Source: Phytoactinopolyspora halotolerans
Lineage (GTDB): Bacteria; Actinomycetota; Actinomycetes; Jiangellales; Jiangellaceae
Reading direction: 5' to 3'
Assembly (NCBI RefSeq): GCF_010550675.1
Contig: NZ_JAAGOA010000010.1
Coordinates: 124,001 to 188,000 of the forward strand
Length of the DNA: 64,000 nucleotides
Shown here: positions 1 to 19,690 of the stretch, piece after piece
How the letters are laid out: each line of letters begins with the position of its first letter
Position numbering within the stretch: the first letter of the stretch is position 1
The notes under the pieces: generated by a model
Databases searched by the model: none
Told to the model about the DNA's origin: nothing
What the model saw: the letters and a program-made list of their open reading frames with translations, nothing else
Position numbers and translations under genes: made by a program

Positions 1-2360
1 CGCTTGATCGCCAACGCCCGGGTGAGGCAGTCGTCGGCCGCATCCAGGTCCCCGAGGTTCTGCAGGTACACCCCCAGGTTGTTCAAGCAGTAACCGAGCA
101 GTATCGGGTCGCTGTTCTGCTCCGCCTGGCGTGCCGCGTCGGTGAGGGTGTCCACGGCCTGCCGGGTGTCCAGCCGGGCGAGAACCGTCGCCAGCTGGGC
201 GGTCGCGTGGGCCAACGCGTGCCGATCATCCGTCTCCCGGGCCGCGCGAACCGCCGAACGGATCATCGCGATCGAGTCGGTGATGTACCCGCTGTCCGCC
301 ACGGCGACGCAGTGCCCGAGCGCCAGATGCCACGTCCAGTGTTGTGGCCCCGAAGACGCGGCACGCGCGATGGCGGCCGCGATGTTGCGGTGTTCCGCCT
401 GCGACCACGACGCCGCTTCGAACGCGTCGCGAAGCACGATCTCGGGCAGGCCGTCCGGGATCGCCGGCGCGTCCAGCTTCGGGCTCTCCGGGCGAAATCG
501 GCGGCTCGCCGCTTCCTTGCCCTGGTAGTACCAGGCCATCAGCCGGTCGATCGCGGCCGATCGGGTCTCGACGGACTCTTCCGCCTCGGCACAGTGTGCG
601 GCGAAATCCCGGAGCAGATCATGGAAGCGATACCGGCCGACGGCGTGTTCCTCCACCAGATGGGCGGTCTCCAGCCGGCGCAGGTGCCCGCGAACGGCCT
701 GCGGAGATTCCCCGCTCAACGCCGACGCCGCGTCGGGGGTGAAGTCGGGACCGGGGACCAGGCCCAGCAGCCGGAACAGCCGCCGCGGGCCGTCCGGGAG
801 TCGCTGATATGACAGGTCGAACGCGGCCGCCACCGCGGACTGGTCGTCGTCCTGGATCTCCAGTGTGGTCAGCGGGGCGGCGCGCAACTCTGCCACGTAT
901 CCGGCCACCGTCCGCCGCGGCTGGTCGGCCAGTTGTGCGGCGGCGATACGGAGCGCCAACGGCAGACCGGCACAGGCGTCGATCAACGCCCGGGCCTGTT
1001 CCGGCTCCGCCGCGATACGCTCCTCCCCCAACAGGCTGACCAGCAACTCGTAGGCTTCGTCATCGGGAAGCGTCCGCAACCGCAGTGGATGTGCGCCTTC
1101 CTTGGCCACCAGCCCGAGCAATCGGTCCCGGCTGGTCACTAGGGCAAGGCAGCCCGGTGAGGCCGGCAGCAGCGGTCGCACCTGCTGAGCCGACGCGGCG
1201 TTGTCCAGCAGCACCAGGACCTTCCGCTCCGCCAGCAGCGAGCGATACTCAGCCGAGGCCGGGGACAGCTGAGTCGGAATGCTGCCCGGATCGGCACCCA
1301 GACCGCGCAGCAGGTGGGTGAGCGCTTCGATCGGCTCCAGGGCTGGAGCCGTAGCATGCCCGCGCAGGTCGATGTAGAGCTGCCCGTCGGGATAACGGTC
1401 GGCGACGGCGTGTGCGTACCGGAGCGCGACGGTCGTCTTCCCGACGCCGGCGGTACCGGTGGCCACCAGCACCGCCGCACCGTCATCCGCGCACGCACGC
1501 TCGATCTCGGCCAACTCGGTCGCACGGCCGATGAACACCCCGGACCCAGGCGGCAGCTGCCGCGGGCGGGACGGACGGTCGTCACCGGCGTCGTCCGGCG
1601 AGCCCGCACCCACACTCGGATCCGGCGACTCCGCCTGGATCCGCTCGTACAGTTCGCGCAGCTCGGCACCCGGCTCCGTGCGCAGGCTCTCCGCGAGACG
1701 CCGACGCAGCTGCCGGTAGGTCGTCAACGCACGCGCTGGTCGGCCGCTGTGCCACAACGCCCGCATCAGCTGAAACGCGAACCGCTCGCGCAGCGGATAC
1801 TCCGCGACCCGCTCGGTCAGCTCCGGCACGATCTCGCGGAACGCACCCTTCTCCAGCTCCGTCTCGTACAACTCCTCGTAGGCGGCGAGCCGCGCCTCCG
1901 TCAGACGCGCGGACTCAGGACCCACAACCTCGACCTGGTCCACGTCCGCGTACGGCTCGCCGCGCCACTGCGCCAGCCCTTCGCGATACAGCCGTACCGC
2001 GTCGTCGAGCCGCCCGGCGGCAGCCGCCTCCCGGGCCGCGGCGTGCCGTTCGGCGAAGACGCCGGCGTCCAGCTCCCCTGCCGCCACCTGCAGCAGGTAA
2101 CCGCCGGACTCACCCCGCAACCGATCCGGTGCGTCCAACACGCGACGTAACCGATGGATGTGCATCTGCAGGCTCTTGTCGGAACGGCTCGGCCAGCCGG
2201 ACGGATCCTCGCCCCACAACACCTCGCCCAGAGCATCGGCACTGACCACACGGTTCGCCCGGGCCAACAACACCGACAGCAACCGCCGCCGCTGCTCCGA
2301 TACCGGCACAGCGCCGTCGTCCCGGACTATCCGGACCGTCCCGAGCACCTCGAACCGCAC
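1..2360 (-). CDS. SARP/AfsR-family transcriptional regulator, C-terminus outside window
   Basis: A large STAND-type regulator, of which 786 residues are visible; the C-terminus runs off the left edge. In order: an OmpR-like winged helix (about 1-95), a bacterial transcriptional activation domain (BTAD, about 97-240), an NB-ARC ATPase with P-loop GTAGVGKTT near residue 300, Walker B KVLVLLDNA, GLPLA and FHDLL motifs, and the beginning of TPR-like repeats. GTG at 2360 is chosen because AAAGGGG lies just upstream and the product starts MRFEVLG, like the next gene. An ATG at 2378 is in frame but has no ribosome site. It is a tandem paralogue of the gene at 2536-5793. Family members activate secondary-metabolite or developmental genes; the target here is unknown. 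Confidence 0.93.
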   Translation of the reverse strand, partial: MRFEVLGTVRIVRDDGAVPVSEQRRRLLSVLLARANRVVSADALGEVLWGEDPSGWPSRSDKSLQMHIHRLRRVLDAPDRLRGESGGYLLQVAAGELDAGVFAERHAAAREAAAAGRLDDAVRLYREGLAQWRGEPYADVDQVEVVGPESARLTEARLAAYEELYETELEKGAFREIVPELTERVAEYPLRERFAFQLMRALWHSGRPARALTTYRQLRRRLAESLRTEPGAELRELYERIQAESPDPSVGAGSPDDAGDDRPSRPRQLPPGSGVFIGRATELAEIERACADDGAAVLVATGTAGVGKTTVALRYAHAVADRYPDGQLYIDLRGHATAPALEPIEALTHLLRGLGADPGSIPTQLSPASAEYRSLLAERKVLVLLDNAASAQQVRPLLPASPGCLALVTSRDRLLGLVAKEGAHPLRLRTLPDDEAYELLVSLLGEERIAAEPEQARALIDACAGLPLALRIAAAQLADQPRRTVAGYVAELRAAPLTTLEIQDDDQSAVAAAFDLSYQRLPDGPRRLFRLLGLVPGPDFTPDAASALSGESPQAVRGHLRRLETAHLVEEHAVGRYRFHDLLRDFAAHCAEAEESVETRSAAIDRLMAWYYQGKEAASRRFRPESPKLDAPAIPDGLPEIVLRDAFEAASWSQAEHRNIAAAIARAASSGPQHWTWHLALGHCVAVADSGYITDSIAMIRSAVRAARETDDRHALAHATAQLATVLARLDTRQAVDTLTDAARQAEQNSDPILLGYCLNNLGVYLQNLGDLDAADDCLTRALAIK

Positions 2361-2432
2361 GCCGACCCCTTTGTTCATTCGACGACGACGCCACAGCCGC
2401 CGCCATGCACATCCTGCCAGCAGAGATCGCCC

Positions 2433-2461
2433 AGTGATCGGTCAGTGACCACTCCGTGATA
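2433..2461 (-). promoter_or_regulatory. Three heptameric direct repeats, likely SARP binding site
   Basis: On the plus strand the heptads are AGTGATC (2433-2439), AGTGACC (2444-2450) and CGTGATA (2455-2461). Each pair is separated by exactly 4 bp, giving an 11-bp period. A weaker fourth heptad, AGAGATC, lies in register at 2422-2428. SARP proteins are known to bind direct heptamer repeats 11 bp apart on one DNA face. The array lies between the stop of the upstream SARP gene and the start of the 2360 gene, so it probably drives the latter. The same layout occurs at 5919-5947. Confidence 0.7.
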
Positions 2462-2535
2462 TGCGTCGAGAACGTCACGTCACCTGCCGCGGCGAGAATC
2501 CGCATCTGGTCTCCGCTGCCGAGATATACGGCAGC

Positions 2536-5500
2536 TCACCCGCCCCCGGGTTCACGTTCCGCTGCCGCGCCGGTCCCGCCGGCGCGGCGGAACTCGGCGA
2601 CCATCCTCCGCGCCCGCTCGACATGTTCGTCTGCGATCGCCGTGTCGCCGGTCTTCCGCAACGCCTCGCCGAGCGCATCCAGCGCCCGGGCTTCGGCCAG
2701 GTACTGGCCACACGCCTGATGGATCGCCAGCGCCTCCTTGGCACGATTGACGGCGTCCTCCTCCCGTCCGGCCGCAAGGTCGATCTGGGAGAGGACCACC
2801 AGTGCCGCGGCCTCCCGGGCGCGGAGCCCGCCACGGGCGAGCACATAGGCCTCGCGGGCAGCCGACTCGGCAGACGACGTGGCACCGAGCCGCAATTCGG
2901 CCCGCGCGGCACCGAGCAGGGCGCCGATGTGCGGCTGGTGCTCGCCGGTGGTGCGCGCGATGGCAACGGCTTGCTCGAACTGCTCGAAGGCGTGCCTCGG
3001 CCGGTTCGCCTGAAGCAGCGCCCGGCCCAGGGCGATCCGGGTCAGCGCCCGATAGCGCGCATCGCCGGCTTCGTCCGCTCGTGCCACCGCAACACGGGCT
3101 TGACCCAATGCCTCCTCGATCCGCCCGATATCGGTCAACACGTTGACCCGCAGGGTCTTCGCCGACAACTCGGTGCGTGCACCACCGAACGCGACGGCGT
3201 GGCGTTCAGCGCGATCGAGGACGGCGAACGTATCGCGGAGATCGCCCAGTTCGGCCCGGACCTCGGCCAGATTGACGGCGGCCCGTGCAGCCAAGCTGTC
3301 CGACTCGTTACCGATGAGCTCGATGACCTCCTCGTACATCGCGGCGGCCCGAGCGAACTGGCCGCGCAGTTCAGCCAGATATGCGAGGTTGTGCAACGTC
3401 GACTCGACCCACTTTCCGTCCTCCGCCCGCTTGACGGCGAGTGCCCGGGTCAGGTGCGTGTCCGCGGCCTCCAGATTGCCGAGATCCTGATGCACCAGAC
3501 CGAGATTGTTCAGGCTGATGCCGAGCAGAACCTGGTCGCCGGCGTTCTCGGCGTGCGTGACCGCGTCGGCGTACACCTCCGCGGCCCGGCGGATGTCGAC
3601 GTAGTGCAGTGCAGAGCCCAGTCCGGTGAGTGAGCCCGCCAGCGCCTGCGAGTCTCCCGCGGCTCTCGCCGCGTCGGCGCCCTTGCGAAAGACGGCGATG
3701 GCACCGGCGGTGTAGCCGAGGCTCGACATGACCGTGCCGTGGGCCAGCGCGAGATCCCACGCCCAGTGCAGCGGCAGCTGATCTCCGGCCGCGGCGACTG
3801 CCGCGGCGATGTTGTCGTGCTCGCCCTTCGACCAGCTGATCGCGTCCGCCTTGTCCTTGATCGCCGGCGGCGGAACGCCTTCCGGGATGTCCTGCAGTGT
3901 CTGCATCGGACGTAACGGTCGCAGAGTCGAACTGGCGGCCTCCTTGCTCAGGTAGTACCAGGTCATGAGACGCTTCAGCGCAAGCGCGCGGGTCTCAGGC
4001 GACTCCTCCGCCTGTCCTCGGGCCTGCGCGTACTCGCGGAGCAGGTCATGGAACCGGTACCGATCCGGTTGATGTTCGTCCACGAGATGTGCCGCCGCGA
4101 GCCGACGCAGGCACCTGGACGCAGCCGCCGGTTCCATCGCGCTCAGCGCAGCAACGGCGGCAACCGAGAAATCCGGACCGGGCACCGACCCGAGGAGCCG
4201 GAACATACGGCGGGCGTCATCATCGAGCCGCTGGTACGACAGGTCGAACGCGGTCGCGACGGCAGCCTGCTCGTCACCGGTGATCTCCATCTGCGCCAGC
4301 GGACTCTTCCGCAGGTCGGACACGTACTCGGCGAGCGATCGGTGTCGCTGATCAGCGAGCTGAGCCGCCACGATCCGTACCGCCAGCGGCAGGCCGGCGC
4401 ACGCCTCGACCAGATCCGTGATCCGCTCCGGCTCCGCGACCGCGCGATCCGTGCCGAGCAGCCGAACCAGTAACTCGCGCGCCTCCTCCTGCGGGAGTAG
4501 ATCGACGTTGAGCCGGAACGCACCCTCCCGGGCGACGAGTCCCAGCATCCGGTCACGGCTGGTCACCAGCGCCACGCACCCCGGTGACGCCGGCAACAAC
4601 GGGCGCACCTGACCGGCCGACTCCGCATTGTCCAGCAACACCAACACCTTGCGGTCGGCCAGCAACGACCGGTATGCCGCCGTCGCCGCCTCCGCGTCCA
4701 CCGGAATGCGACGGGGATCCGCGCCCAGCCCCAGCAGCAGCTGGGAAAGCGCGTCGATCGGCGCCAGCGCCGGCGACGGTGCGTGCCCGCGCAGATCGAC
4801 GTAGAGCTGCCCGTCCGGGTACCGGTCTACCGCGGAGCGGGCGTACTGAACAGCCAGGCTGGTCTTGCCCACCCCGGCCGGCCCGGAGGCCACGATGACG
4901 GAAGCACCGTCGGCTTGCACGCGTTCCAACTCGGCGAGCTCCGCCCGGCGCCCGACGAACACCGCGGTCACCGGCGGAAGTTGCCTCGGTGGAGGTTCGG
5001 TGCGGGCGGGCGCCGAACCTTGCTCCGCAGGGCTGTCCGCGTCGGCGGGGCGTTCCGCCGCCACCGGTGCTTCTGCCCGGATCTCTTCATACAGCCGACG
5101 GATCTCGGTGCCGGGCTCGAGGTCGAGCTTCTCCGCCAGCCGGCGGCGGAGCTGCCGGTATGTCGTCAACGCCCGGGCGTGCCGGCCGGCACGGTGCAGC
5201 GCCCGCATCAGTTGCCCGGCGAACCGTTCCCGCAGCGGGTATTCGGCCACCCGTTCGGTCAGCTCGGGCACGATCTCCCGATGTGCGCCGCGCGCAAGCT
5301 CCGCGTCGTACAGCTCCTCATATGCAGCCAGCCTGGCCTCGGTGAGGCGCACCGCCTCCGCCCCGATCCGGTCCACATCGTCGACGTCGGCGTACGGCTC
5401 ACCACGCCACAGCTCCAACGCGCCCCGGAACTCGCGGACCGCGTCGTCCAGGCGCCCCGCCGCCATCGCCTCGCGGGCCTCGCCGTGTTGTTCGCTGAAG

Positions 5501-5793
5501 AGCTCGGCATCCAGCTCGCCGGGCCCGATCCGGAGCAGATAGCCTCCCGGTTGCGCGGTCAAGCGTTCCGTATCGTCCAATGCCTTGCGGAGCCGGTGAA
5601 TGTGCATCTGCAGGCTCTTGTGCGGCCGCCCGGGCAGGTCAGCGTCCCAGAGCGCCTCCGCCAGCGTGGCCACACTCACGGCACGATTCGCACGGGCCAG
5701 CAGCACCGCGAGCAGTCTGCGGCGTTGGTCCGACACCGGAACGGGGGCGCCGTCCCGGATGAGCCGGACCGGCCCCAGCACCTCGAACTGCAC
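2536..5793 (-). CDS. SARP/AfsR-family transcriptional regulator with NB-ARC and TPR domains
   Basis: A complete 1085-residue AfsR-like activator. It has a winged helix (about 1-95, recognition region KSLQMHIHRLRK), BTAD (about 97-240), a linker rich in Pro/Ala/Glu, an NB-ARC ATPase (P-loop GPAGVGKTS near 305-313, Walker B KVLVLLDNAES, GLPLA, FHDLLREYA), and a long TPR array to the C-terminus (AGSLTGLG, ISLNNLG and LHNLAYL helices). GTG at 5793 is preceded by AAGGGG at good spacing. ATP binding and TPR-mediated sensing usually control DNA binding in this family. It is a close tandem paralogue of the gene ending at the left edge and divergent from a third SARP at 6023. No biosynthetic genes lie to the right, so its targets may lie left of the window. 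Confidence 0.95.
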   Translation of the reverse strand: MQFEVLGPVRLIRDGAPVPVSDQRRRLLAVLLARANRAVSVATLAEALWDADLPGRPHKSLQMHIHRLRKALDDTERLTAQPGGYLLRIGPGELDAELFSEQHGEAREAMAAGRLDDAVREFRGALELWRGEPYADVDDVDRIGAEAVRLTEARLAAYEELYDAELARGAHREIVPELTERVAEYPLRERFAGQLMRALHRAGRHARALTTYRQLRRRLAEKLDLEPGTEIRRLYEEIRAEAPVAAERPADADSPAEQGSAPARTEPPPRQLPPVTAVFVGRRAELAELERVQADGASVIVASGPAGVGKTSLAVQYARSAVDRYPDGQLYVDLRGHAPSPALAPIDALSQLLLGLGADPRRIPVDAEAATAAYRSLLADRKVLVLLDNAESAGQVRPLLPASPGCVALVTSRDRMLGLVAREGAFRLNVDLLPQEEARELLVRLLGTDRAVAEPERITDLVEACAGLPLAVRIVAAQLADQRHRSLAEYVSDLRKSPLAQMEITGDEQAAVATAFDLSYQRLDDDARRMFRLLGSVPGPDFSVAAVAALSAMEPAAASRCLRRLAAAHLVDEHQPDRYRFHDLLREYAQARGQAEESPETRALALKRLMTWYYLSKEAASSTLRPLRPMQTLQDIPEGVPPPAIKDKADAISWSKGEHDNIAAAVAAAGDQLPLHWAWDLALAHGTVMSSLGYTAGAIAVFRKGADAARAAGDSQALAGSLTGLGSALHYVDIRRAAEVYADAVTHAENAGDQVLLGISLNNLGLVHQDLGNLEAADTHLTRALAVKRAEDGKWVESTLHNLAYLAELRGQFARAAAMYEEVIELIGNESDSLAARAAVNLAEVRAELGDLRDTFAVLDRAERHAVAFGGARTELSAKTLRVNVLTDIGRIEEALGQARVAVARADEAGDARYRALTRIALGRALLQANRPRHAFEQFEQAVAIARTTGEHQPHIGALLGAARAELRLGATSSAESAAREAYVLARGGLRAREAAALVVLSQIDLAAGREEDAVNRAKEALAIHQACGQYLAEARALDALGEALRKTGDTAIADEHVERARRMVAEFRRAGGTGAAAEREPGGG

Positions 5794-5918
5794 ACCGTCC
5801 CCTTGTCCCGGTCACCCGTCTTCGCCGGCCGCCGTCCCTCTCCGTCGTATCGCCGCCGCCATCCTGCCAGCCTTGGCCAGTACGACCGTCGTGCCCATCC
5901 GCACGGTCACAACCAACC

Positions 5919-5947
5919 AGTGACCGATCAGTGACCACGACGTGATG
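5919..5947 (-). promoter_or_regulatory. Three heptameric direct repeats in divergent SARP promoter
   Basis: Heptads AGTGACC (5919-5925), AGTGACC (5930-5936) and CGTGATG (5941-5947) are spaced by 4 bp, an exact 11-bp period. They match the array at 2433-2461 almost base for base, and the block CATCCTGCCAG is also shared between the two promoters. The site lies between the divergent SARP genes at 5793 and 6023 and could serve either or both. No convincing -10 box could be assigned. Confidence 0.7.
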
Positions 5948-6022
5948 TCCTGTCAAGGTTGCCACGAACTTCGCAGGCGGTGAAGCCCGCGTCGCCAGGT
6001 ACGTACACAAGGGGGGTGCATG

Positions 6023-7153
6023 ATGAGGTTCGGCGTGCTGGGGCCGCTCACTGTCCACGACGACGACGGGCGTCCCATCTCTCCCACATCTTCCAAGCAG
6101 CGCGCATTGCTGGCCATACTGCTCTGCCGGAGAAACACCCGGGTGTCGACCGATGGCCTGTTGGAGATGCTGTGGGACGCCGAGCCGCCGTCGTCGGCCC
6201 GGACGAACCTGCAGAGTTACGTCCACCGGCTGCGGCGCCGCCTGGGCGAGGGCCGCATCGCCCACCAGATGGCGGGCTACGAGCTCACGGTCAAGCCGGA
6301 TGAGTCCGACGACGATGAGCTGGAACAGCTCGCGGACCACGGCCGTCAGGCGCTGGAGGCGCATGACCCGGAGAGCGCGTCCCGGCTGTTCCGGCGGGCA
6401 TTGAACCTATGGCGGGGCAATACCGCCTACGCCGACGTCGACCATTCGAGCGTGATCCATGCCGAAGCACTGCGACTGGGCGAACTCCGCCACGTGATCA
6501 TCGAGCTCAAGATCGACGCCGACCTCGATCTCGGTCGGCACGACGCCTTGATCCCGGAGCTCACGACGCTCGTCGAGACCTATCCGCTACGCCAGCGGCA
6601 TTACGGCCAGCTGATGCTGGCGCTGCACCGGGTGGGGCGGACCGCGGACGCGCTCGGCGTCTACCAGCGCGCCCGGACGGCGATGATCGACGAACTCGGC
6701 ATCGAGCCGAACGGACAGCTACGTGAACTCGAGCGCGCGATCCTCAACGGTGATCCGATGCTGGCTGCGGCACGTGCCCCGGTCGGGTCCGACCGCCGGG
6801 CCGTCCCGGCCCAGTCGCGTGCGCCGGCAACCACGCTCGGCGCCGGCCCCGCCACCGCCGGAAGCGCAGGTCCGGCGGGCAACGATGCGCCGCATGTCCG
6901 GTCCCGGCGCGAGCTCGGCCGCAACGAAGTCGGCATGGTCCTGGCACGCTTCCTCCGCTCACTCGGAGTGGACGAGCGCAAGGTTCCCGCCGACGTCGCC
7001 GCGCTGGCCGACCTCTTCGCCTCGGTGGTTCCGGGTCGCTCGGTACGCGTCCTGCTCGATGAGCCGCACGGCGCACGCCGGGCCCCGCTGCGGCCGGACG
7101 CCGAGAACACCGCCCCCAGGCCACGGCGACGTCGATCGGAGAACGCCCGGTGA
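6023..7153 (+). CDS. SARP-family regulator with a truncated NB-ARC remnant
   Basis: A 376-residue regulator with a winged helix (about 1-90) and BTAD (about 92-240), the minimal SARP core. After a Pro/Ala/Gly-rich linker, residues about 305-358 (FLRSLGVDERKVP, then GRSVRVLLDE, then APLRP) line up with the NB-ARC segment just before and including Walker B in the two neighbours (LLLGLGADPRRIP, then KVLVLLDN, then RPLLP). The P-loop that should precede it is missing, and everything after Walker B, including the TPRs, is gone. The tail is very basic. ATG 6023 is preferred over 6020 because the AAGGGGGG ribosome site is then at normal spacing and the product begins MRFGVLG like its paralogues. It is probably an AfsR-type gene that decayed to a small SARP; the DNA-binding part looks intact. 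Confidence 0.88.
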   Translation: MRFGVLGPLTVHDDDGRPISPTSSKQRALLAILLCRRNTRVSTDGLLEMLWDAEPPSSARTNLQSYVHRLRRRLGEGRIAHQMAGYELTVKPDESDDDELEQLADHGRQALEAHDPESASRLFRRALNLWRGNTAYADVDHSSVIHAEALRLGELRHVIIELKIDADLDLGRHDALIPELTTLVETYPLRQRHYGQLMLALHRVGRTADALGVYQRARTAMIDELGIEPNGQLRELERAILNGDPMLAAARAPVGSDRRAVPAQSRAPATTLGAGPATAGSAGPAGNDAPHVRSRRELGRNEVGMVLARFLRSLGVDERKVPADVAALADLFASVVPGRSVRVLLDEPHGARRAPLRPDAENTAPRPRRRRSENAR

Positions 7154-7771
7154 CGATACGGCCGGCCCCGACCTGGTCCTGCCGGCGGTGTAGCGCGGGT
7201 ATAGCGGGATCAGTCATATTCTCTGCCGTTCATCCGGGCAGCAGCCACCAGCTCGATCCCCGGAAGGACGCACGGCGAACATCTGCAGGAGACGGCAACA
7301 GTGAGACCAGCTCACCACCCACCGCGCGTGGCCGGGTTACTATGCTCCGCGGCGAACACCCCGGATGCGGAGCGGCCGGAAGCCGGCAGCTCGTCGGCGG
7401 CTTGTGGACGACTCCACGGCGGTCGACGAGGGTGAGCCCCATACCGCCGACGGGGCGCGGAAGGAGATCGGTGGCGACAACGGTGGCGATGGAGGCACCG
7501 GCGTCGGCATCGATCATGGCGATGACACGGGGGAGGACCTGCCGGACACCGGTACGTCGAGCATCCGCATCCGCCATCGCCGATCGAGGTGACGCTGAGC
7601 GCGTCCGGCCTGGGATCACCGCATGAGCGTGATCATTCATCCGGATGGCCAGCGTATGCACCACCAGTAATCAAGGCGCCGACACAGGGGCCGGGTAGAT
7701 CGGCCGGTCTCGGCCGTACACCCGTATCACGTGGCGCCACCATTTCGATTCATATCTGGAGTAGAACGAAC
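7154..7771. other. Intergenic region without a convincing gene
   Basis: About 620 bp between the short SARP gene and the lipoprotein gene. Open frames exist on both strands (for example 7365-7592 plus and 7230-7664 minus), but their predicted products are low-complexity, match no recognised family and lack good ribosome sites. A GGAG about ten bases before 7772 probably serves the lipoprotein. Nothing else could be assigned. Confidence 0.5.
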
Positions 7772-8323
7772 ATGAAGTCCACCACGTCCAACATCGCTGC
7801 TCGCACGGCCGGACGACGCCTCCGCGGCGTCGCCGGTGCGCTCGTCGGCGTCACCCTGCTGTTCACCGCGGCCGCATGTGACTCCGACGACGAGGGCGAC
7901 GACACGACGGCGTCGGAGTCGGAGAACGAGGAGTCGACCGACACCGACGCCACCGACAACGACTCGGCCGACACCGACTCCACGGATGAGGAGTCGAGCG
8001 ACACCGAGCAGGACTCTGGCGAGAGCACGGATGCCGGCGACTATTGCGGTACGGTCCAGGAGTTCGGCACCGATGTGCTGAATGACTCCACCGCGATGAC
8101 CGATCCGGAGGCCGCGAGCGGCCTTGTCGACGCCTACCGCCAGATCGCCGATGCGGCGCCGAGCGACATCGCGGCCGACTGGTCCGCCATGGCGGACGCC
8201 CTGGAGACGATCTCCGACATCGACATGTCGGATCCGGACGCCGCCGCGGAGCTCGAGGGGCTCGACGACATGATGGGGGCCGCACAGCGGATCAGCGACC
8301 ACATCATGAGCGAGTGCATGTAA
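7772..8323 (+). CDS. Acidic secreted lipoprotein of unknown function
   Basis: 183 residues. A basic N-terminus (RTAGRRLRG) is followed by a hydrophobic stretch and a lipobox-like TAAAC, so the protein is probably lipidated on Cys31 and held outside the membrane. Next comes a strongly acidic Asp/Glu/Ser/Thr linker of about 50 residues, then a folded C-terminal domain of about 95 residues that begins DYCGTVQEFG and ends SECM, suggesting one disulfide between its first and last cysteines. The frame is open further upstream to 7589, but ATG 7772 has a GGAG site and starts the signal peptide. No family was recognised. It appears monocistronic, followed by two GC-rich hairpins. Confidence 0.82.
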   Translation: MKSTTSNIAARTAGRRLRGVAGALVGVTLLFTAAACDSDDEGDDTTASESENEESTDTDATDNDSADTDSTDEESSDTEQDSGESTDAGDYCGTVQEFGTDVLNDSTAMTDPEAASGLVDAYRQIADAAPSDIAADWSAMADALETISDIDMSDPDAAAELEGLDDMMGAAQRISDHIMSECM

Positions 8324-8403
8324 GTTCCCGCCCAGGATGCGGCTGACCTGGGCGCATCCGATCACCACGTCGCCTCGGAACGTCCACCGAGGCGCGTTGG
8401 CCC

Positions 8404-8436
8404 GGAGCTCCGGCCTCCAGGGGGAGCCGGAGCTCC
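8404..8436 (+). terminator. GC-rich hairpin after the lipoprotein gene
   Basis: GGAGCTCCGGC (8404-8414) and GCCGGAGCTCC (8426-8436) form a perfect 11-bp stem with an 11-base loop, about 80 bp after the lipoprotein stop. There is no U-tract, as is usual for high-GC actinobacteria. Termination is inferred from position and stem strength. Confidence 0.5.
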
Positions 8437-8442
8437 GATCCC

Positions 8443-8489
8443 GCCCCGGGGCACCGGCGATGCCCACCTCATCGACGGCGCCCCGGGGC
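8443..8489 (+). terminator. Second GC-rich inverted repeat before fumarylacetoacetase
   Basis: The palindrome GCCCCGGGGC occurs at 8443-8452 and again at 8480-8489, so the two copies can pair with each other over 10 bp or each fold alone. It lies about 30 bp before the fumarylacetoacetase start and could terminate the upstream transcript or act in the leader. Confidence 0.35.
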
Positions 8490-8517
8490 CTTGCCGTTCT
8501 CGGATAACGTCGGCTCC

Positions 8518-9744
8518 ATGACGGAGGCGAAACGGAGCCGGCTGGAGACACCCGACGGCGCGATGTTCGACGGCTACACGCTTCCCTATGGCGTGTTCTC
8601 GACCGCACGCGAGGAACCGCGCGTGGGCGCAGCCGTCGGCGACTATGTGATCGACCTGGCGCCGCTGGCGGCCGTCGAAGGGCTCGACGGCGGCCACGTG
8701 TTCGACCGGCCGTCCCTGAACCCGTTCATGAGCCTGGGCCGGCCGGCGTGGCAGGCGGTGCGCGACTGGCTGCTGGAGCTGGTCACCGCGGGGTCACCGA
8801 GTGAGCTGCTGGAACCGCACTTGGTCCCCTTGTCCGACGTCGAGCTGCACATGCCGTTCGAGGTCGCCGACTACGTCGACTTCTACTCGAGCCGGTCGCA
8901 CGCGGAGAACGTCGGCAAGATCTTCCGGCCCGACTCGCCGTCGCTGCCGGCCGCGTGGCGACACCTGCCGATCGGATACCACGGGCGATCGGCGACGGTC
9001 GTGCCGTCCGGCTCGGAGATCGTCCGCCCGTCCGGCCTGCGCCGCAGCGGTGACGGCGTCGTGTTCGGGCCGTCGAACCGGCTGGACATCGAGGCCGAGG
9101 TGGGGTTCGTCGTCGGGACGCCGTCCGAGCGCGGACACCCGGTGCCGGTAGACGACTTCACCGAACACGTCTTCGGCGTCGTGCTGGTCAACGACTGGTC
9201 CGCCCGCGATCTGCAGGCGTTCGAATACGTACCGCTGGGACCGTTCCTGGGCAAGTCCTTCGCCACCTCGATCTCGCCGTGGGTCGTGCCCCTGGCGGCG
9301 CTGGAACATGCCCGGATCGAACCGCCCGTCCGCGATCCGGAGCCCGCTGCGTATCTGGCCGAGGCCGAGCCATGGGGGTTGGACATCCGTCTCGAGGTCG
9401 AGTGGAACGGCACGGTGGTGTCCCAGCCACCGTTCGCGGAGATGTACTGGACACCCGCGCAGCAGCTCGCGCATCTCACCGTCAACGGAGCCGCCGTACG
9501 TACCGGCGAGCTGTATGCGTCCGGAACGGTCAGTGGACCGGAGAAGGACGAACGAGGGTCGTTTCTCGAGCTGTCGTGGAACGGCAGCGAGCCGGTGGTT
9601 CTCGACAACGGTTCCCGGCGCAGCTTCCTGGAGGACGGCGATACGGTCATCATCCGCGCCACCGCCCCCGGACCCGGCGGAACCCGTCTGAAGCTGGGCG
9701 AGGTCAGCGGCAGCGTCCGCCCCGCCGGCGATTCCGGCCGCTGA
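8518..9744 (+). CDS. fahA: Fumarylacetoacetase
   Basis: 408 residues, normal for the family. The enzyme hydrolyses fumarylacetoacetate to fumarate and acetoacetate, the last step of tyrosine/homogentisate breakdown, in the cytosol. It has an N-terminal SH3-like domain and then the catalytic beta-roll. Visible family residues include DFYSSRSHAENVG (metal Asp and the catalytic His of the dyad), DIEAEVGFVVG (metal Glu pair) and VLVNDWSARD (metal Asp), followed by PLGPFLGKSFATSISPW. ATG 8518 (MTEAKR) is preferred to an upstream in-frame TTG. 4-Hydroxyphenylpyruvate dioxygenase of the same pathway is 2 kb away on the other strand. Homogentisate dioxygenase is not in the window. It is convergent with the cation efflux gene, with 6 bp between stops. 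Confidence 0.96.
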   Translation: MTEAKRSRLETPDGAMFDGYTLPYGVFSTAREEPRVGAAVGDYVIDLAPLAAVEGLDGGHVFDRPSLNPFMSLGRPAWQAVRDWLLELVTAGSPSELLEPHLVPLSDVELHMPFEVADYVDFYSSRSHAENVGKIFRPDSPSLPAAWRHLPIGYHGRSATVVPSGSEIVRPSGLRRSGDGVVFGPSNRLDIEAEVGFVVGTPSERGHPVPVDDFTEHVFGVVLVNDWSARDLQAFEYVPLGPFLGKSFATSISPWVVPLAALEHARIEPPVRDPEPAAYLAEAEPWGLDIRLEVEWNGTVVSQPPFAEMYWTPAQQLAHLTVNGAAVRTGELYASGTVSGPEKDERGSFLELSWNGSEPVVLDNGSRRSFLEDGDTVIIRATAPGPGGTRLKLGEVSGSVRPAGDSGR

Positions 9745-9750
9745 GCGATC

Positions 9751-10680
9751 TCAGTCGTGCTGAACGTACTCGTGGTCCAGGTGCCCGCGCGGCTCGATCT
9801 GGAACGTGCTGTGCTCGATGTCGAAATGGCCGGCCAGGCAACCGTGCAATCCGTCCAGGATCGACTCGGTGCCGCATTCGGCCTGGCTCATCTCGTCCAC
9901 CACCACATGTGCCGAGAGAACCGGGACGCCACTGGTGATGGTCCACGCGTGCAGGTCGTGAACGTCGACGATGCCGGGAACGTCCATCATGTGCCTGCGG
10001 ACCTCGTCCAGATCCACGCCCTTGGGGGTCGCCTCCAGCAGGACATGCACCACGTCCCGCAGTAACATCCACGCGCGCGGCAGGATCATCAACCCGATCA
10101 GGATGGACGCCACGGCATCGGCACGGACGTCACCGCCTGCCATGATCACGATCGCCGCACCCACCACGGCGACCGAACCAAGCAGGTCGCCCAGCACCTC
10201 GAGATAGGCACCGCGCACGTTCAGGCTCTGCTCCTTCCCGCGTCGCAGGATAAGCAGTGAGACCCCGTTGCCGGCCAGACCGATGAGAGCGGCGACGAGC
10301 ATGACGTCGCTCTCGACGGCTCCCGGGTCGGTCAGGCGGCGCACCCCTCCGATCAGCACCAGGATCGCGGCCACCCCGACCACGACGGCGTTCGTCATCG
10401 CAGCGAGAATCTCGGCCCGCTGCAGGCCGAACGTCCGTCGCGCGCTCGGAGGACGGGCCGCGATCAACGTGGCCAGTAGCGCCAGGGCGACCCCGGTGCC
10501 GTCGGTGAAGCTGTGCGCCGCGTCTGCCAACAGCGCCATCGAGCCGGACAACCACGCGCCGATCACCTGCGCGAGCGTGATTCCGGCGACGATGCCGAGG
10601 ACCGCCATCATCCGTCGACGGTGCGCGTAGGCGGCCGTTCCGGTCGTGTCGCCGTGGCCGTGTCCGTGCCCGAAGCCCAT
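9751..10680 (-). CDS. Cation diffusion facilitator (CDF) metal efflux protein
   Basis: 309 residues and six predicted membrane helices, with a His-rich N-terminus (GHGHGHG) and a cytoplasmic C-terminal domain. CDF proteins export Zn, Co, Cd and similar ions in exchange for protons. The helix 2 metal site is HSFTD. The equivalent helix 5 site reads YLEVLGD, with Glu where many zinc CDFs have His, which may shift metal preference. Helix 1 and 2 motifs (GSMALLADAAH) are typical. Its ATG at 10680 shares one base with the TGA of the ArsR gene (TGATG), so the two are translationally coupled. An upstream in-frame start at 10734 would lie inside the ArsR gene and was rejected. Confidence 0.94.
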   Translation of the reverse strand: MGFGHGHGHGDTTGTAAYAHRRRMMAVLGIVAGITLAQVIGAWLSGSMALLADAAHSFTDGTGVALALLATLIAARPPSARRTFGLQRAEILAAMTNAVVVGVAAILVLIGGVRRLTDPGAVESDVMLVAALIGLAGNGVSLLILRRGKEQSLNVRGAYLEVLGDLLGSVAVVGAAIVIMAGGDVRADAVASILIGLMILPRAWMLLRDVVHVLLEATPKGVDLDEVRRHMMDVPGIVDVHDLHAWTITSGVPVLSAHVVVDEMSQAECGTESILDGLHGCLAGHFDIEHSTFQIEPRGHLDHEYVQHD

Positions 10681-11123
10681 CAGTGCCTCCGCGGACGCGC
10701 CTGGGTTCCGGCGTGGCCGGAGGCGTGCAGGCACCCACGGACCGCGGCACCACAGGCCTCCGCGGACTCCGGTCGATGGTGTTCAGGACAGAGCGTGACG
10801 GCCGAGCCGCCGGCATCCAGCACATTCTCGGCAGCGGCGAGCATGCGCCACAGCTCCGGTCGGGCGAGTGCGTAGTAGGTCGACCGGCCGTGTGGATGCG
10901 CGTCGATCAGGCCGGCCGAGCGCAGGCATGCCAGGTGCCCGGACACGGTCGACTGGGCCAGTCCAAGATCACGAGTGAGGTCGACGACGCGTCGCTCACC
11001 GTCACCCAGCAGTCGGATGATGGCCAGCCGGGCCGGATCGGCCAGGCTGTGGAAGAGCATGACGGCCGCCTGATCCGTCTCACGGCTCGCGACGCCGCCG
11101 ACAACGGTTGGATTCATCGGCAT
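10680..11123 (-). CDS. ArsR/SmtB-family metal-responsive repressor
   Basis: 147 residues. A winged-helix ArsR domain (about 20-105) contains LADPARLAIIRLL, then the recognition helix region LAQSTVSGHLACLRSAGLI and the wing HGRSTYYAL. The classical ELCVCDL metal site of ArsR is absent (RRVVDLTRD instead). A C-terminal extension carries several Cys and His (CPEHH, EACG, GCLHASGH), so metal is probably sensed there. It is cotranscribed with the CDF exporter and presumably represses both until metal binds. ATG 11123 is chosen because TATCAT lies exactly six bases upstream, fitting a leaderless transcript; starts at 11117, 11141 or 11189 are possible. Confidence 0.9.
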   Translation of the reverse strand: MPMNPTVVGGVASRETDQAAVMLFHSLADPARLAIIRLLGDGERRVVDLTRDLGLAQSTVSGHLACLRSAGLIDAHPHGRSTYYALARPELWRMLAAAENVLDAGGSAVTLCPEHHRPESAEACGAAVRGCLHASGHAGTQARPRRH

Positions 11124-11180
11124 ATACCGATGATAGCGCATCTGGCCAATGTATGCTTGGCGGTCGTTTACGCTCGCCCC
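11124..11180. promoter_or_regulatory. Divergent promoter region of ArsR and SRPBCC-like genes
   Basis: Only 57 bp separate the two start codons. On the minus strand TATCAT (11135-11130) ends six bases before the ArsR ATG. On the plus strand TACGCT (11169-11174) ends six bases before GTG 11181. Both arrangements fit leaderless mRNAs. GCATAT and GTATGC form a weak imperfect repeat around the ArsR start, a possible self-operator. Confidence 0.45.
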
Positions 11181-11741
11181 GTGCCCCACGTGAAGATCAC
11201 GGGTGAGCGCGAGATCGGTGTCCGCCCGAGTGTCGTCTGGGATCGACTCGCCACCATCCTGTCCGCACAGGGCAGTTCACTACGCCCGGGCGGCGTCTTC
11301 GCACTCAAGAACCCGGCGACCGAGGTCCACGGCGGCAATCCGGATCGACTCCGCCTGGTTTCCGTTCAGAGACACCGGCAGCTGGTCCTCGAGACCACAG
11401 GCGCGGCCAACGCGGGGTGGCGGGCCCACATCGACCTGGCCTCATCCGCACGAGGAACGCTCGTCCGGCTTCGGGCTGAACTCCGTCTGCCGGGCGGTCT
11501 ACTGCTGACAGCGGCGCGGTGGATCTTCCGGCGACGCTACCGGCGAATCTGCGCCGATGCGGCAGCGTACGTCCTGTCCGAGATCGAGCTGCTGGCGACC
11601 GACGGTCACGCGCCGAAGCCGCGCAATCCGCTCCGCCATCTGCCGTTCGCCGGCGATAGGTTCGAGGCCCACAACGACGAAGCGGAGAGCCGGCCGCTGC
11701 TTCTTCACCTGTACGAGTCAGCGAAGGCTACCGAGGACTAA
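11181..11741 (+). CDS. SRPBCC-like small protein of unknown function
   Basis: 186 residues. The N-terminus (ITGEREIGVRPSVVWDRLATIL) and the alternating strand pattern that follows (RLRLVSVQRHRQLVLETT, WRAHIDLASS, GTLVRLRAELRLPG), ending in a long helix, resemble the SRPBCC/polyketide-cyclase helix-grip fold. The assignment rests on pattern only. The frame stays open upstream through the antisense of the ArsR gene, but that stretch is a shadow; GTG 11181 follows a TACGCT box. It is divergent from the ArsR-CDF pair and convergent with the dioxygenase, with two bases between stops. A role in metal response is possible but unproven. Confidence 0.6.
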   Translation: MPHVKITGEREIGVRPSVVWDRLATILSAQGSSLRPGGVFALKNPATEVHGGNPDRLRLVSVQRHRQLVLETTGAANAGWRAHIDLASSARGTLVRLRAELRLPGGLLLTAARWIFRRRYRRICADAAAYVLSEIELLATDGHAPKPRNPLRHLPFAGDRFEAHNDEAESRPLLLHLYESAKATED

Positions 11742-11743
11742 CG

Positions 11744-13077
<1,334 letters not shown>

Positions 13078-13080
13078 ATC

Positions 13081-13109
13081 TTGAGCAGACAATAGCGCTC
13101 TTCTATATA
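13081..13109 (+). promoter_or_regulatory. Likely sigma-70 promoter of the Lrp-type regulator
   Basis: TTGAGC (13081-13086) and TATATA (13104-13109) are separated by 17 bp, in an unusually AT-rich stretch. Transcription would start near 13116, leaving a leader of about 80 bases before GTG 13197. Confidence 0.5.
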
Positions 13110-13196
13110 CAATATGATCACTATCAAGAGGGCTTAGCGCCGATGGCCGCAAGGTCCCAGCCGACCGTCGCGCGCTGCGCAAGCGGAGAATGAGGT

Positions 13197-13676
13197 GTGG
13201 TCGAGGAGATGGTCGACGCGCTGGATACCCGGATCATCGAACTGTTCACTCATGAGCCCCGGATCGGCGTACTCGAAGCCTCACGCCGGCTCGGCGTTGC
13301 GCGGGCGACCGTACAGTCTCGCCTGGACAAGATGGTCTCGACGGGCGTGATCAGCTCATTCGCGCCGACGGTCGATCCACACGCGCTCGGTTACCGGGTG
13401 ACGGCCTTCGCCTCACTCGACATCCGGCAGGGGGCGCGACAGTCCGTCGCCGCGCACCTCGAACGGATCCCCGAGGTCCTCGAGGTGCACACCATCACCG
13501 GCCAAGGCGACCTGCTCTGCCGGATCGTCGCCCGGGACAACGACGACCTGCAGCGCGTCATCGACGAGCTGGTGGGCGACGCCGACATCGTGCGTACCTC
13601 CACCCTGATCGCGCTCTCGACCGTCGTGGGGCCACGCGTCCTACCTCTGCTGCACCGCGCCGAGACGGGGAGTTGA
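13197..13676 (+). CDS. Lrp/AsnC-family transcriptional regulator
   Basis: 159 residues, normal for the family. An N-terminal helix-turn-helix (about 8-60: LDTRIIELFTHEP, then VLEASRRLGVARATVQSRLDKM) is followed by an alpha-beta RAM ligand-binding domain (VTAFASLDIRQG, EVLEVHTITGQGDLLCRIVA). GTG 13197 is used, with an ATG at 13209 as alternative. Lrp-type proteins bind amino acids or related metabolites. Placement divergent to the dioxygenase suggests control of tyrosine catabolism by an aromatic amino or keto acid; this is inference. Confidence 0.93.
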   Translation: MVEEMVDALDTRIIELFTHEPRIGVLEASRRLGVARATVQSRLDKMVSTGVISSFAPTVDPHALGYRVTAFASLDIRQGARQSVAAHLERIPEVLEVHTITGQGDLLCRIVARDNDDLQRVIDELVGDADIVRTSTLIALSTVVGPRVLPLLHRAETGS

Positions 13677-13760
13677 CCAGCTGTCACCTGCAGCGTCATG
13701 CCACCGATACCATCCGTAGTGCGGACCCCACTTGCCAGGGCCCCGGGTAGTCAGGCTTAA

Positions 13761-14282
13761 ATGTGCAGAGTGTCCAAACGAGCGTCGGGCGGTACGCTTT
13801 CCGCCTTCCTGATCCTGGCTGCGATCGTCGGCTTCGCCGTCGGCGCCTACCTTGGCACCCAATCGGGCGATGACGCCGAGCCCAGCGCGGCTTCCACCGA
13901 CCCGCCAGGCACGGACACGCCAGACGGGGACTCGACCGGTGCCCCCTCCGACGGCGACGAGCAGGACGAGGACGGCGAGGACGAGCCGTCCGGAGGATCG
14001 GGTGCCAGCCTGGAACTGTCCCAGTCGACGGCGGGCGCCAACGCGACCATCGAGTACACGCTCACGCTCGATTCCGGTGAGGCCGGCGTGCTCATGCAGA
14101 TGCAGCGCAACGTCGACGGTGCGGGCTGGGAGAACTTCCCCATAGACGCCCGTGAGACCGACGACAACGGACAGATCTCCGGGAACGTTCAGTCCAGCCG
14201 CCCCGGCCAGAACGCGTTCCGAATGATCGGCGTCAACGACGACTCAATCGTCTCCAGCGAGGCCGTCGTCACCATCGAGTAG
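13761..14282 (+). CDS. Single-pass membrane-anchored protein of unknown function
   Basis: 173 residues. A basic N-terminus is followed by one membrane helix (about 14-34, LSAFLILAAIVGFAVGAYLG), an Asp/Glu/Pro/Ser-rich linker (about 37-88) and a C-terminal domain of about 80 residues with beta-sandwich-like alternation (SGASLELSQSTAGANATIEYTL interrupted by short turns, ending EAVVTIE). The C-terminal domain should lie outside the cell. Start ATG 13761 or GTG 13770; neither has a strong ribosome site. It is convergent with the TetR gene, with three bases between stops. No family was recognised. Confidence 0.7.
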   Translation: MCRVSKRASGGTLSAFLILAAIVGFAVGAYLGTQSGDDAEPSAASTDPPGTDTPDGDSTGAPSDGDEQDEDGEDEPSGGSGASLELSQSTAGANATIEYTLTLDSGEAGVLMQMQRNVDGAGWENFPIDARETDDNGQISGNVQSSRPGQNAFRMIGVNDDSIVSSEAVVTIE

Positions 14283-14285
14283 CGG

Positions 14286-14894
14286 TCACCGCGGGTGCGG
14301 TACGCCCAGCAGCTCGAACGCCGCGGCACGGAAGTGTTCCCGCGCCTGCTGCGTGGTCAGTGCCGGCTCCCCGCGTAGCCGCTGCAGAGACAGACCGTCC
14401 ACCAGGGCCACCAGTAGTGTCACGGTGCGATCCGGATCAGGCGCGACGAAGGCACCGGCGGCCGCGCCATCCGTCACCATCGCGCGCAGCATCTCGTTCC
14501 ACCGGGCGTACCGGGACCGCTGCCCGGACCGCACCTCCCGGGCCTCCTCGGCCGGGCCGATGGAGTCAAACCACAGCTGCCAATGCCGCCTGGTCTCCTC
14601 GGTGAAGACCCCCTCGATCAGCAGGTCCAGGGCGCCCAGCGGATCGCTCTCCGCGCGAACCCGCTCCTCCAGCCGTTCGTAATAGGCAGTCACGTCCTGT
14701 GCGACGGCCACGTCGACGATGTCGGCCACGGAGCGGAAGTGATACGTGACCGTGCCGACCGAGACGCCCGCGGCTCGCGCGATTCCGCGCAGCGTGATCC
14801 CCCGCAGTCCGGACTCGTGCAGCAGCGGGACGGCAGCGTCGACGATCATCTGGCGCCGCACCTCGGGCGGCTGACGACGGCGTACCTCTGCCAT
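14286..14894 (-). CDS. TetR-family transcriptional regulator
   Basis: 202 residues. The N-terminal helix-turn-helix (about 10-58) has LLHESGLRGITLRGIARAAGVS and VGTVTYHFRS; the C-terminal helical ligand domain resembles the TetR_C type found with YcdC/BetI relatives (LLVALVDGLSLQRL). ATG 14894 lies four bases after the stop of the hydrolase gene, so it is the last gene of the ABC importer operon. The frame is open further upstream inside the hydrolase gene. It probably represses this operon through the palindrome at 22429-22452; the inducer may be a transported or hydrolysed substrate. Confidence 0.93.
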   Translation of the reverse strand: MAEVRRRQPPEVRRQMIVDAAVPLLHESGLRGITLRGIARAAGVSVGTVTYHFRSVADIVDVAVAQDVTAYYERLEERVRAESDPLGALDLLIEGVFTEETRRHWQLWFDSIGPAEEAREVRSGQRSRYARWNEMLRAMVTDGAAAGAFVAPDPDRTVTLLVALVDGLSLQRLRGEPALTTQQAREHFRAAAFELLGVPHPR

Positions 14895-14898
14895 GCGG

Positions 14899-18764: not shown

Positions 18765-18799
18765 TTCCGTCCCGTCCTCGGCCGCCCCATGCATCCGCG

Positions 18800-19690
18800 T
18801 CACCGGCCGTCCCGCCGGAACCGGTCGATCCCCCACGCCTTCGCCAAGCCGTCAGCGGCCAGGTTCAGCCCGACGACGAAGGTCGCCAGCGCGACGATCG
18901 GGGCCAGCGTGGCCATAGGGACGACAGTGAGCGCGGTGCGGTTCTCCGCGACCATGAGGCCCCAGTCCGGAGTCGGCGGGTTGGCTCCGAAACCCAGGAA
19001 AGACAGCGAGCTGACCAGCAACGCCGCCCAGGACGCGCGCATCGCCAGCTCAACCGCGACCACGTCGGCGACATTCGGCAGCAGTTCGCGCCGCAGGATC
19101 GACCAGCGCCGCTCGCCGCGCGCCCGGGCCGCGGTGACGTACTCCAGGGGTACGACGCTCTGCGCGGCCGCCCGCACCACCCGGACCACGCCGGGCACGT
19201 AGACGATGGTGATGGCGGCGACGACCACCCAGGTACCGGTGCCGAGCGCGGTCACCACGACCAGCAGTGCCAGGATCGCCGGCACCGCCAGGACGCTGTC
19301 CACCAACCGCATGACCACGTTGTCCGCCCAGCCGCCGCGCAGCGCGACGAAGCATCCCACGACGGTGCCCAGGCCCACCGCCGCGACGGTGGACAGGGCG
19401 CAGACGACCAAGGCGAACCGGCCGCCGTGCAACACCCGGGTCAGCACGTCCCGCCCGTACTGGTCGGTGCCGGCGAGATGGTCCCAGCTGACTCCCGCGA
19501 GGGCTTCGGCCGGGACGCTCTGCGTCGGTGCGTAGGAGGTCAGCAGCGGTGCAGCGATCGCGACCAGCACGTGCAACGCGACGATCGCCAGCCCGATGGT
19601 CGCCGCGCGCGAGCTACGTATCCCGGCCCACACGGTCCGCAGCGTCCCCTGGGCCGGTGTGCCCGCAACGGTCAGCTCGCTCCCGGTCAT
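18800..19690 (-). CDS. ABC importer permease, DppC type
   Basis: 296 residues, six predicted membrane helices. It contains the family signature after helix 1 (LAGTDQYGRDVLTRVLHGGR), the EAA loop (YVTAARARGERRW, LLPNVADV) and a C-terminal SFLGFGANPPTPDWG. ATG 19690 overlaps the TGA of the previous permease by four bases and has a strong GGAGGAAGGAG site. It forms the translocation pore with the next-encoded upstream permease. Confidence 0.95.
   Translation of the reverse strand: MTGSELTVAGTPAQGTLRTVWAGIRSSRAATIGLAIVALHVLVAIAAPLLTSYAPTQSVPAEALAGVSWDHLAGTDQYGRDVLTRVLHGGRFALVVCALSTVAAVGLGTVVGCFVALRGGWADNVVMRLVDSVLAVPAILALLVVVTALGTGTWVVVAAITIVYVPGVVRVVRAAAQSVVPLEYVTAARARGERRWSILRRELLPNVADVVAVELAMRASWAALLVSSLSFLGFGANPPTPDWGLMVAENRTALTVVPMATLAPIVALATFVVGLNLAADGLAKAWGIDRFRRDGR

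Follow-up and report, generated by a model that had tools for sequence, protein, structure and literature searches.

Tandem heptad arrays with an 11-bp pitch as probable SARP operators before two large SARP genes of Phytoactinopolyspora halotolerans

Introduction

A stretch of 64,000 nt from Phytoactinopolyspora halotolerans (NZ_JAAGOA010000010.1, 124,001 to 188,000; hereafter the window) carries three neighbouring genes for Streptomyces antibiotic regulatory proteins (SARPs), two large (A and B) and one small (C), with short heptad arrays in front of both large genes. The question raised by this locus is which protein reads the arrays and which genes are controlled through them. Most of what is known about SARPs concerns the switching of antibiotic clusters in Streptomyces, three-heptad SARP operators have been described before, and PieR is a SARP reported to be bound upstream of its own gene (PMC10972967). 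Because PHO boxes have the same layout, the binding protein cannot be named from the array format alone, and heptads at an 11-bp pitch are not sufficient to distinguish SARP sites from PHO boxes. Here we propose, with a probability of about 0.78, that the arrays are SARP operators through which A and B would regulate themselves and each other, and that an operator of the same type stands before the gene of an extensin-like protein.

Results

Two heptad arrays upstream of the large SARP genes

Both triplets were present letter for letter where the original prediction had placed them, before the two large SARP genes. On the + strand, site 1 (2433 to 2461) reads AGTGATC ggtc AGTGACC actc CGTGATA and site 2 (5919 to 5947) reads AGTGACC gatc AGTGACC acga CGTGATG, each with a pitch of exactly 11 bp. 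The textbook SARP format claimed for them was borne out, since both consist of heptameric direct repeats at this pitch and adjoin genes for SARP-domain proteins (Trans_reg_C plus BTAD). Read toward gene A on the - strand, site 1 becomes TATCACG-N4-GGTCACT-N4-GATCACT; site 2, located in the divergent region between B and C, becomes CATCACG-N4-GGTCACT-N4-GGTCACT when read toward gene B.

The arrays were not frequent genome-wide, in agreement with the original prediction. The exact triple GTGA-N7-GTGA-N7-GTGA occurred twice in the window and five times in the 7.30-Mb source genome (G000), with none for the reversed control in the genome, and six simulated genomes with the dinucleotide frequencies of the window gave 0, 0, 2, 0, 1, and 2 (mean 0.83). 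The stricter pattern AGTGAYC-N4-AGTGAYC-N4-MGTGA was found only at sites 1 and 2 in the source genome and at two places in a sister species (G002), giving four matches among the 22 genomes of the family comparison, which includes these two species; the other 20 genomes had none. When GGTCACT-N4-GGTCACT was searched in both species with up to two mismatches, 70 matches were obtained, and the five with no or one mismatch were these same four arrays. The three remaining exact GTGA triples of the source genome were set aside, as they lie within or at the edge of predicted open reading frames (ORFs); two of them scored below sites 1 and 2 in the heptad scan and the third was under the threshold. 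A class-wide search for three RTCAC units at pitch 11 was likewise discarded as too degenerate to inform, with matches in 102 of 393 genomes (four in the source genome and three in the sister species).

Gene A (- strand, 1 to 2378, continuing to window coordinate -882) encodes a large SARP of 1086 aa that starts at ATG 2378 or, if it resembles B in this respect, at GTG 2360. Gene B (- strand, 2536 to 5793) encodes one of 1085 aa with Trans_reg_C, BTAD, NB-ARC, and TPR domains, that is, all parts of a large SARP (SARP domain, NB-ARC, and TPR); in A, Trans_reg_C, BTAD, and NB-ARC were detected in the first 792 aa, which the domain scan covered. The two proteins share 55% identity. Gene C (+ strand, 6020 to 7153) encodes a small SARP of 377 aa with Trans_reg_C and BTAD. 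The AfsR structures 8hvr, 8k60, and 8jke were matched by the SARP part of B. Against NCBIfam NF053617, the AfsR equivalog with a cut-off of 1430 bits, B scored 489 and C 190, and by this cut-off B is not an AfsR orthologue.

Repeat number and promoter elements

Toward gene A, four heptads rather than three were discernible at pitch 11 in site 1 (TATCACG, GGTCACT, GATCACT, and GATCTCT), and four likewise in the counterpart of the sister species (CATCACG, GGTCACT, GGTCACT, and GGTTTCT). The fourth heptad occupies 2422 to 2428 on the - strand (AGAGATC on the + strand; GGTTTCT at the same place in the sister species), and it is followed in both species by GCTGGCAGGATGTG. Before gene B, a weak, degenerate fourth repeat, GGTTGTG, lies in register at 5908 to 5914 (- strand). 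The heptad sequences originally given as AGTGA[TC]C, AGTGACC, and CGTGAT[AG] thus stood, whereas the count at site 1 and the direction needed revision, since the array most likely functions in the - strand orientation (GGTCACT), facing A and B.

A tentative -10 element of gene A is CAGGAT (2411 to 2416, - strand), identical in the sister species; its distance is 5 nt to the fourth heptad and 16 nt to the third. In published SARP sites, the 3' repeat lies 8 bp from the -10 element (PMC10936776). A SARP operator would also be expected to cover the -35 element.

Origin of the two sites

In the sister species, an array lies between the C orthologue (72% identical, with the array placed as in the window) and a divergent A-type start, which was read by hand from the sequence. 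Contig 11 of that species starts inside the A orthologue (78%) and continues with the B orthologue (65%), with no array between them. The B orthologue was matched in two frames, to about residue 140 and then for the rest (L058, about 3094 to 3124), suggesting a frameshift or an assembly error. The gene order is C-array-B-array-A in the source genome versus C-array-A-B in the sister species, where the join across the contig break was deduced. Sites 1 and 2 have the leader CATCCTGCCAGC in common, and the gene order is swapped. The two sites thus seem to descend from a single promoter by copying and are probably not independent finds, which would account for their near-identity.

Such common ancestry raises the possibility that the likeness of the sites reflects nothing but a recent promoter duplication without function. 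At site 1, however, the array was conserved better than its surroundings in comparison with the sister species (24/29 identical positions versus 10/30 in the C-side flank; Fisher p 0.0002). At site 2 the corresponding values were 27/29 and 23/30, a difference that was not significant (p 0.15). As two genera also have separate arrays upstream of the extensin-like gene, as described next, we consider a functionless duplicate very improbable.

A second target encoding a secreted extensin-like protein

The second array of the sister species is a perfect GGTCACT triple that ends 109 bp before the gene of a secreted extensin-like protein. A run of 45 N stands beside it (L060, about 8100 to 8145), leaving the far side of this promoter incomplete. 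The assignment of the protein follows a weak similarity to Extensin-like_C (PF06904); the three proteins scanned reached 20.4 to 23.0 bits (E 1e-4 to 6e-4), less than the gathering score of 25.4. The conserved HG.GRAFD and HIH.D segments are similar to M15-type zinc motifs. A twin arginine near the N-terminus was invariant in the alignment, and the protein of Kribbella albertanoniae passed the NCBIfam Tat-signal cut-off, while that of the sister species had no NCBIfam match. Single-sequence structure prediction failed (mean pLDDT 34), and no relative was found in the PDB by sequence at E <= 1.

The protein was restricted to the source genome and the sister species among the 22 family genomes, the sole additional match being a paralogue in the source genome (33%). 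Five genomes in a class sample of 393 gave matches at E <= 1e-10; apart from those of these two species, the three proteins were 33 to 39% identical, and no A/B/C-like SARP was found in the 9.6 to 14 kb fetched around each. In the source genome, the orthologue (84% identical to the protein of the sister species) has GGTTTCT-N4-GGTTTCC at the aligned promoter position, and a second array, GCTTGCT-GGTCTCT-GGTAACT, is found in the reverse orientation at a distance of 189 bp before the start. A matrix whose training set did not contain the latter gave it 21.5 bits, the fourth best value in the 1.795 Mb that were scanned. Two opposed arrays were thus seen upstream of this gene (L101, 6321 to 6349 on the + strand and 6243 to 6260 on the - strand). 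A stretch resembling them was also noticed in the sister species (L060, 8210), with a pitch of 10. These arrays suggest that the extensin-like gene, outside the window, is a second target and the best additional one. Among the papers listed in a literature search on extensin-like proteins together with SARPs or AfsR, none used the term 'extensin-like'.

Arrays in Kribbella

A search of the genus found the extensin-like protein in three of 38 Kribbella genomes, namely K. albertanoniae and two others (G424 and G399). K. albertanoniae encodes it (61% identity) directly ahead of an A/B-like SARP (48%), and its gene is preceded by GCTTTCT-N4-GCTTTCT-N4-CGTTTCG. In this 9.7-Mb genome, GSTTTCY-N4-GSTTTCY had one exact match, which was that array, and 21 more matches with one mismatch (eight for the reversed control). 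In G424, the extensin-like gene is followed by a SARP gene and preceded by repeats at -103 (CATTTCT, GCTTTCC, and GATTTCC) and -168 (CCTTTCT, CCTTTCC, and GCTTGCC). In G399, the order is two tandem SARP genes, an array (GCTTTCT, GCTTTCT, and GCTTGCA), a PQQ-repeat gene, and the extensin-like gene. The arrays of K. albertanoniae and G424 were spotted by eye and tested afterwards (p 0.004 in the period test for the former and p 0.007 for the upstream triple of the latter); that of G399 was the sole match, on both strands of 26 kb, of a regular expression fixed before the array was seen. Hence all three Kribbella genomes carrying the gene have a pitch-11 array upstream of it or its operon, and a SARP gene of one common clade lies next to it or is separated from it by a single gene.

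The orientation of these arrays bears on whether the operator might instead serve gene C, with the + strand form AGTGACC as the functional one and C activated by the array or binding to it. The array does end 72 to 73 bp before C in both the source genome and the sister species, and the C-side flank of site 2 (5948 to 5977, + strand), a possible promoter of C, retains 23 of 30 positions. However, the array of site 1 is kept although the flank on that side is diverged and C is absent there. Furthermore, ahead of the extensin-like gene or operon, the arrays run toward the gene as GGTCACT in the sister species and as GCTTTCT in Kribbella, the second array of the source genome being opposite. We therefore regard a role directed at C as unlikely.

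The change of heptad between genera also bears on the PHO box, the 11-nt direct repeat unit bound by PhoP, which would make the genes phosphate-responsive. The layout is the same, the Streptomyces core GTTCACC matches GGTCACT at five of seven bases, PHO boxes are described as varying a good deal (PMC4415409, PMC6283541), and AfsR and PhoP are reported to compete for overlapping sites at afsS (PMC10972967). However, the heptads of K. albertanoniae and G399 match GTTCACC at only 2 to 3 of seven positions, those of the near G424 array at 2 to 4, and those before the extensin-like gene of the source genome at 3 to 4. Pitch and gene context persist while the heptad changes, and the arrays accompany SARP genes, which fits a SARP better than PhoP, and binding by PhoP seems quite unlikely. 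A PHO-box scan of 1.795 Mb, in which the neighbours were unannotated, gave pairs with up to two mismatches to GTTCACC but no exact pair, and no phosphate gene was identified in these stretches.

Regulators and recognition helix

In a tree that did not include the proteins of the sister species, A, B, a paralogue on contig 19 of the source genome, proteins of G005 and G006, and four Kribbella proteins formed one clade (100/100), with A and B as sisters (100/98). The core of the recognition helix is QMHIHRLR in both A and B, QVHVHRLR in Kribbella, and QSYVHRLR in C. Because arrays stand before both A and B and the two share an identical core, auto- and cross-regulation would be expected for this pair. 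The original prediction had extended such regulation to all three SARPs; C may or may not share in it.

R92 of AfsR contacts the T that stands third in the repeat (PMC10936776). In the alignment to AfsR, each of the 12 rows had R as the equivalent residue, and T was found at position 3 in 28 of 28 tabulated heptads, two weak repeats being left out.

Period tests and matrix scans

In a blind test for any self-similarity at pitch 11 (500 shuffles, smallest possible p 0.002), site 1 reached this smallest value. A weight-matrix scan covered 1.795 Mb of the source genome, about a quarter of it, without annotation. At 21 bits or more, four matches were obtained at pitch 11 versus 0 to 1 at six other pitches, and all six pitch-11 matches of at least 17 bits lay before A, B, or the extensin-like gene, five of them overlapping the training set. 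In 0.61 Mb of fetched loci, 14 matches of at least 18 bits were found at pitch 11, training sites included, versus 0, 0, 1, and 0 at pitches 9, 10, 12, and 13.

Upstream of further SARP homologues, the period test gave nothing convincing (p 0.42 for the first Kribbella SARP, 0.57 for G005, 0.92 for G006, 0.86 for contig C64 of the source genome, and 0.06 for contig C40 of G003), and directly before the A/B homologue of K. albertanoniae p was 0.99. The region upstream of the contig-19 paralogue gave p 0.034, which was dismissed because it came from an unrelated GC-rich repeat. CTTTCC-type pairs were found upstream in contig C3 of the sister species (p 0.008) and contig C4 of G004 (p 0.014). Another large-SARP family, represented on the former contig and on contig C64 of the source genome, was observed to have its own pitch-11 CTTTC-type repeats about 0.2 kb upstream (L067, 6670, + strand; L064, upstream of 9319, - strand).

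Several results weigh against reading the arrays as operators of A and B. In the blind test, site 2 was marginal (p 0.056 to 0.058), pitch 10 scoring as high as pitch 11 in its region and pitch 13 higher, and the extensin-like promoter of the source genome was not significant (p 0.15). Relaxed searches lost the signal: the GTGA triple with up to two mismatches occurred seven times in the window against 6.5 expected, which is chance level, and two-repeat matches with up to two mismatches did not exceed the reversed control (33 versus 37 in the source genome and 37 versus 41 in the sister species). Likewise, pitch 11 did not stand out among matrix matches of at least 15 bits, its count of 12 lying between the 10 of pitch 9 and the 15 of pitch 12, and at 17 bits or more pitch 12 equalled pitch 11 with six. 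In the promoter of gene A, no convincing -10 hexamer was found at the canonical 8 bp from the array, and the second array before the extensin-like gene of the source genome reads away from that gene.

The tree adds further points of this kind. The Kribbella SARPs grouped with the contig-19 paralogue and the G005 and G006 proteins and not with A and B (100/99), so that the regulator of the extensin-like gene in the source genome may be the contig-19 paralogue, the nearest relative of the Kribbella SARPs, with weak support (80/87). No array was found before the same-clade SARP genes of G005, G006, and contig 19, and G005 and G006 had no match to the extensin-like protein. In addition, T88 of AfsR, described as highly conserved (PMC10936776), is replaced by M in A, B, and the contig-19 paralogue and by V in Kribbella; the residue is M, V, or S overall and I in the G006 homologue. 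The base that T88 reads, at position 5, is A in GGTCACT versus T in GCTTTCT. A link with the change of this residue is no more than suggestive, as a simple rule is broken both by the contig-19 protein and by the T-type array before the extensin-like gene of the source genome.

Gene neighbourhood

No obvious antibiotic cluster was seen by eye, without a cluster tool, among the ORFs of window positions 1 to 16000 and of L023 from 9000 to 19500. On either side of the three SARP genes lie small lipoprotein-like genes that are related to each other (window 7589 to 8323 and L023 18026 to 19066, both on the + strand; 32% identity over 125 aa), which have relatives in the same neighbourhood of the sister species (L059, 3960 to 4574; L058, about 5976 to 8451). 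Two in-frame TAG codons occur in another large SARP homologue of the source genome (contig C9, 128231 to 131098), perhaps a pseudogene or an assembly error.

Discussion

Each array would be a tandem SARP operator on which SARP-domain protomers of A, B, or both sit side by side on one face of the DNA, one per 11-bp repeat. By analogy with AfsR, protomers bound near the -35 elements of the A and B promoters would recruit RNA polymerase, so that A and B would activate themselves and each other, and the same type of operator would drive the secreted extensin-like protein elsewhere in the genome. In this scheme we infer the identity of the binder, activation rather than repression, the position of the -10 element, the duplication history, and any part played by C.

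One of the closest known systems is AfsR with the afs box of the Streptomyces coelicolor afsS promoter. AfsR is likewise a large SARP with NB-ARC-type and TPR domains, its winged-helix SARP domains read 11-bp direct repeats (PMC10936776), and both the arginine of the recognition helix (R92) and T at repeat position 3 are retained here. However, the afs box is reported as two repeats of CGTT(T/C)ATCG, whereas the present arrays have three to four repeats of the GGTCACT type, and B falls below the AfsR equivalog cut-off. The CGGCAAG triple of PimR in Streptomyces natalensis is likewise built of three heptads spaced by 4 bp and is located between two regulatory genes (PMC3367932). It differs in the heptad, and PimR is reported in that source not to be autoregulated and to target pimM, whereas the present arrays stand before SARP genes themselves. 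The PHO box of Streptomyces shares the 11-nt direct repeat units, the 7+4 layout, and a partly similar core (PMC4415409, PMC6283541), but its core is GTTCACC against GGTCACT or GCTTTCT here, and the context here is that of SARP genes.

A wider reading, which we hold tentatively and at somewhat less than even odds, is that this is a compact SARP regulon outside antibiotic biosynthesis, in which autoregulated large SARPs would control one secreted protein resembling a cell-wall peptidase. The heptad would then have been rewritten in all repeats together between lineages (GGTCACT versus GGTTTCT or GCTTTCT) with the 11-bp frame kept, possibly following a change at the T88 equivalent or a swap between the A/B pair and the contig-19 paralogue.

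The locus seems to be a conventional SARP switch whose targets are few and in part identified. It would represent a small SARP circuit found in two actinobacterial lineages outside Streptomyces, in which operator variants are paired with their regulators, and may lend itself to studying how the heptad is recognized by SARP residues.

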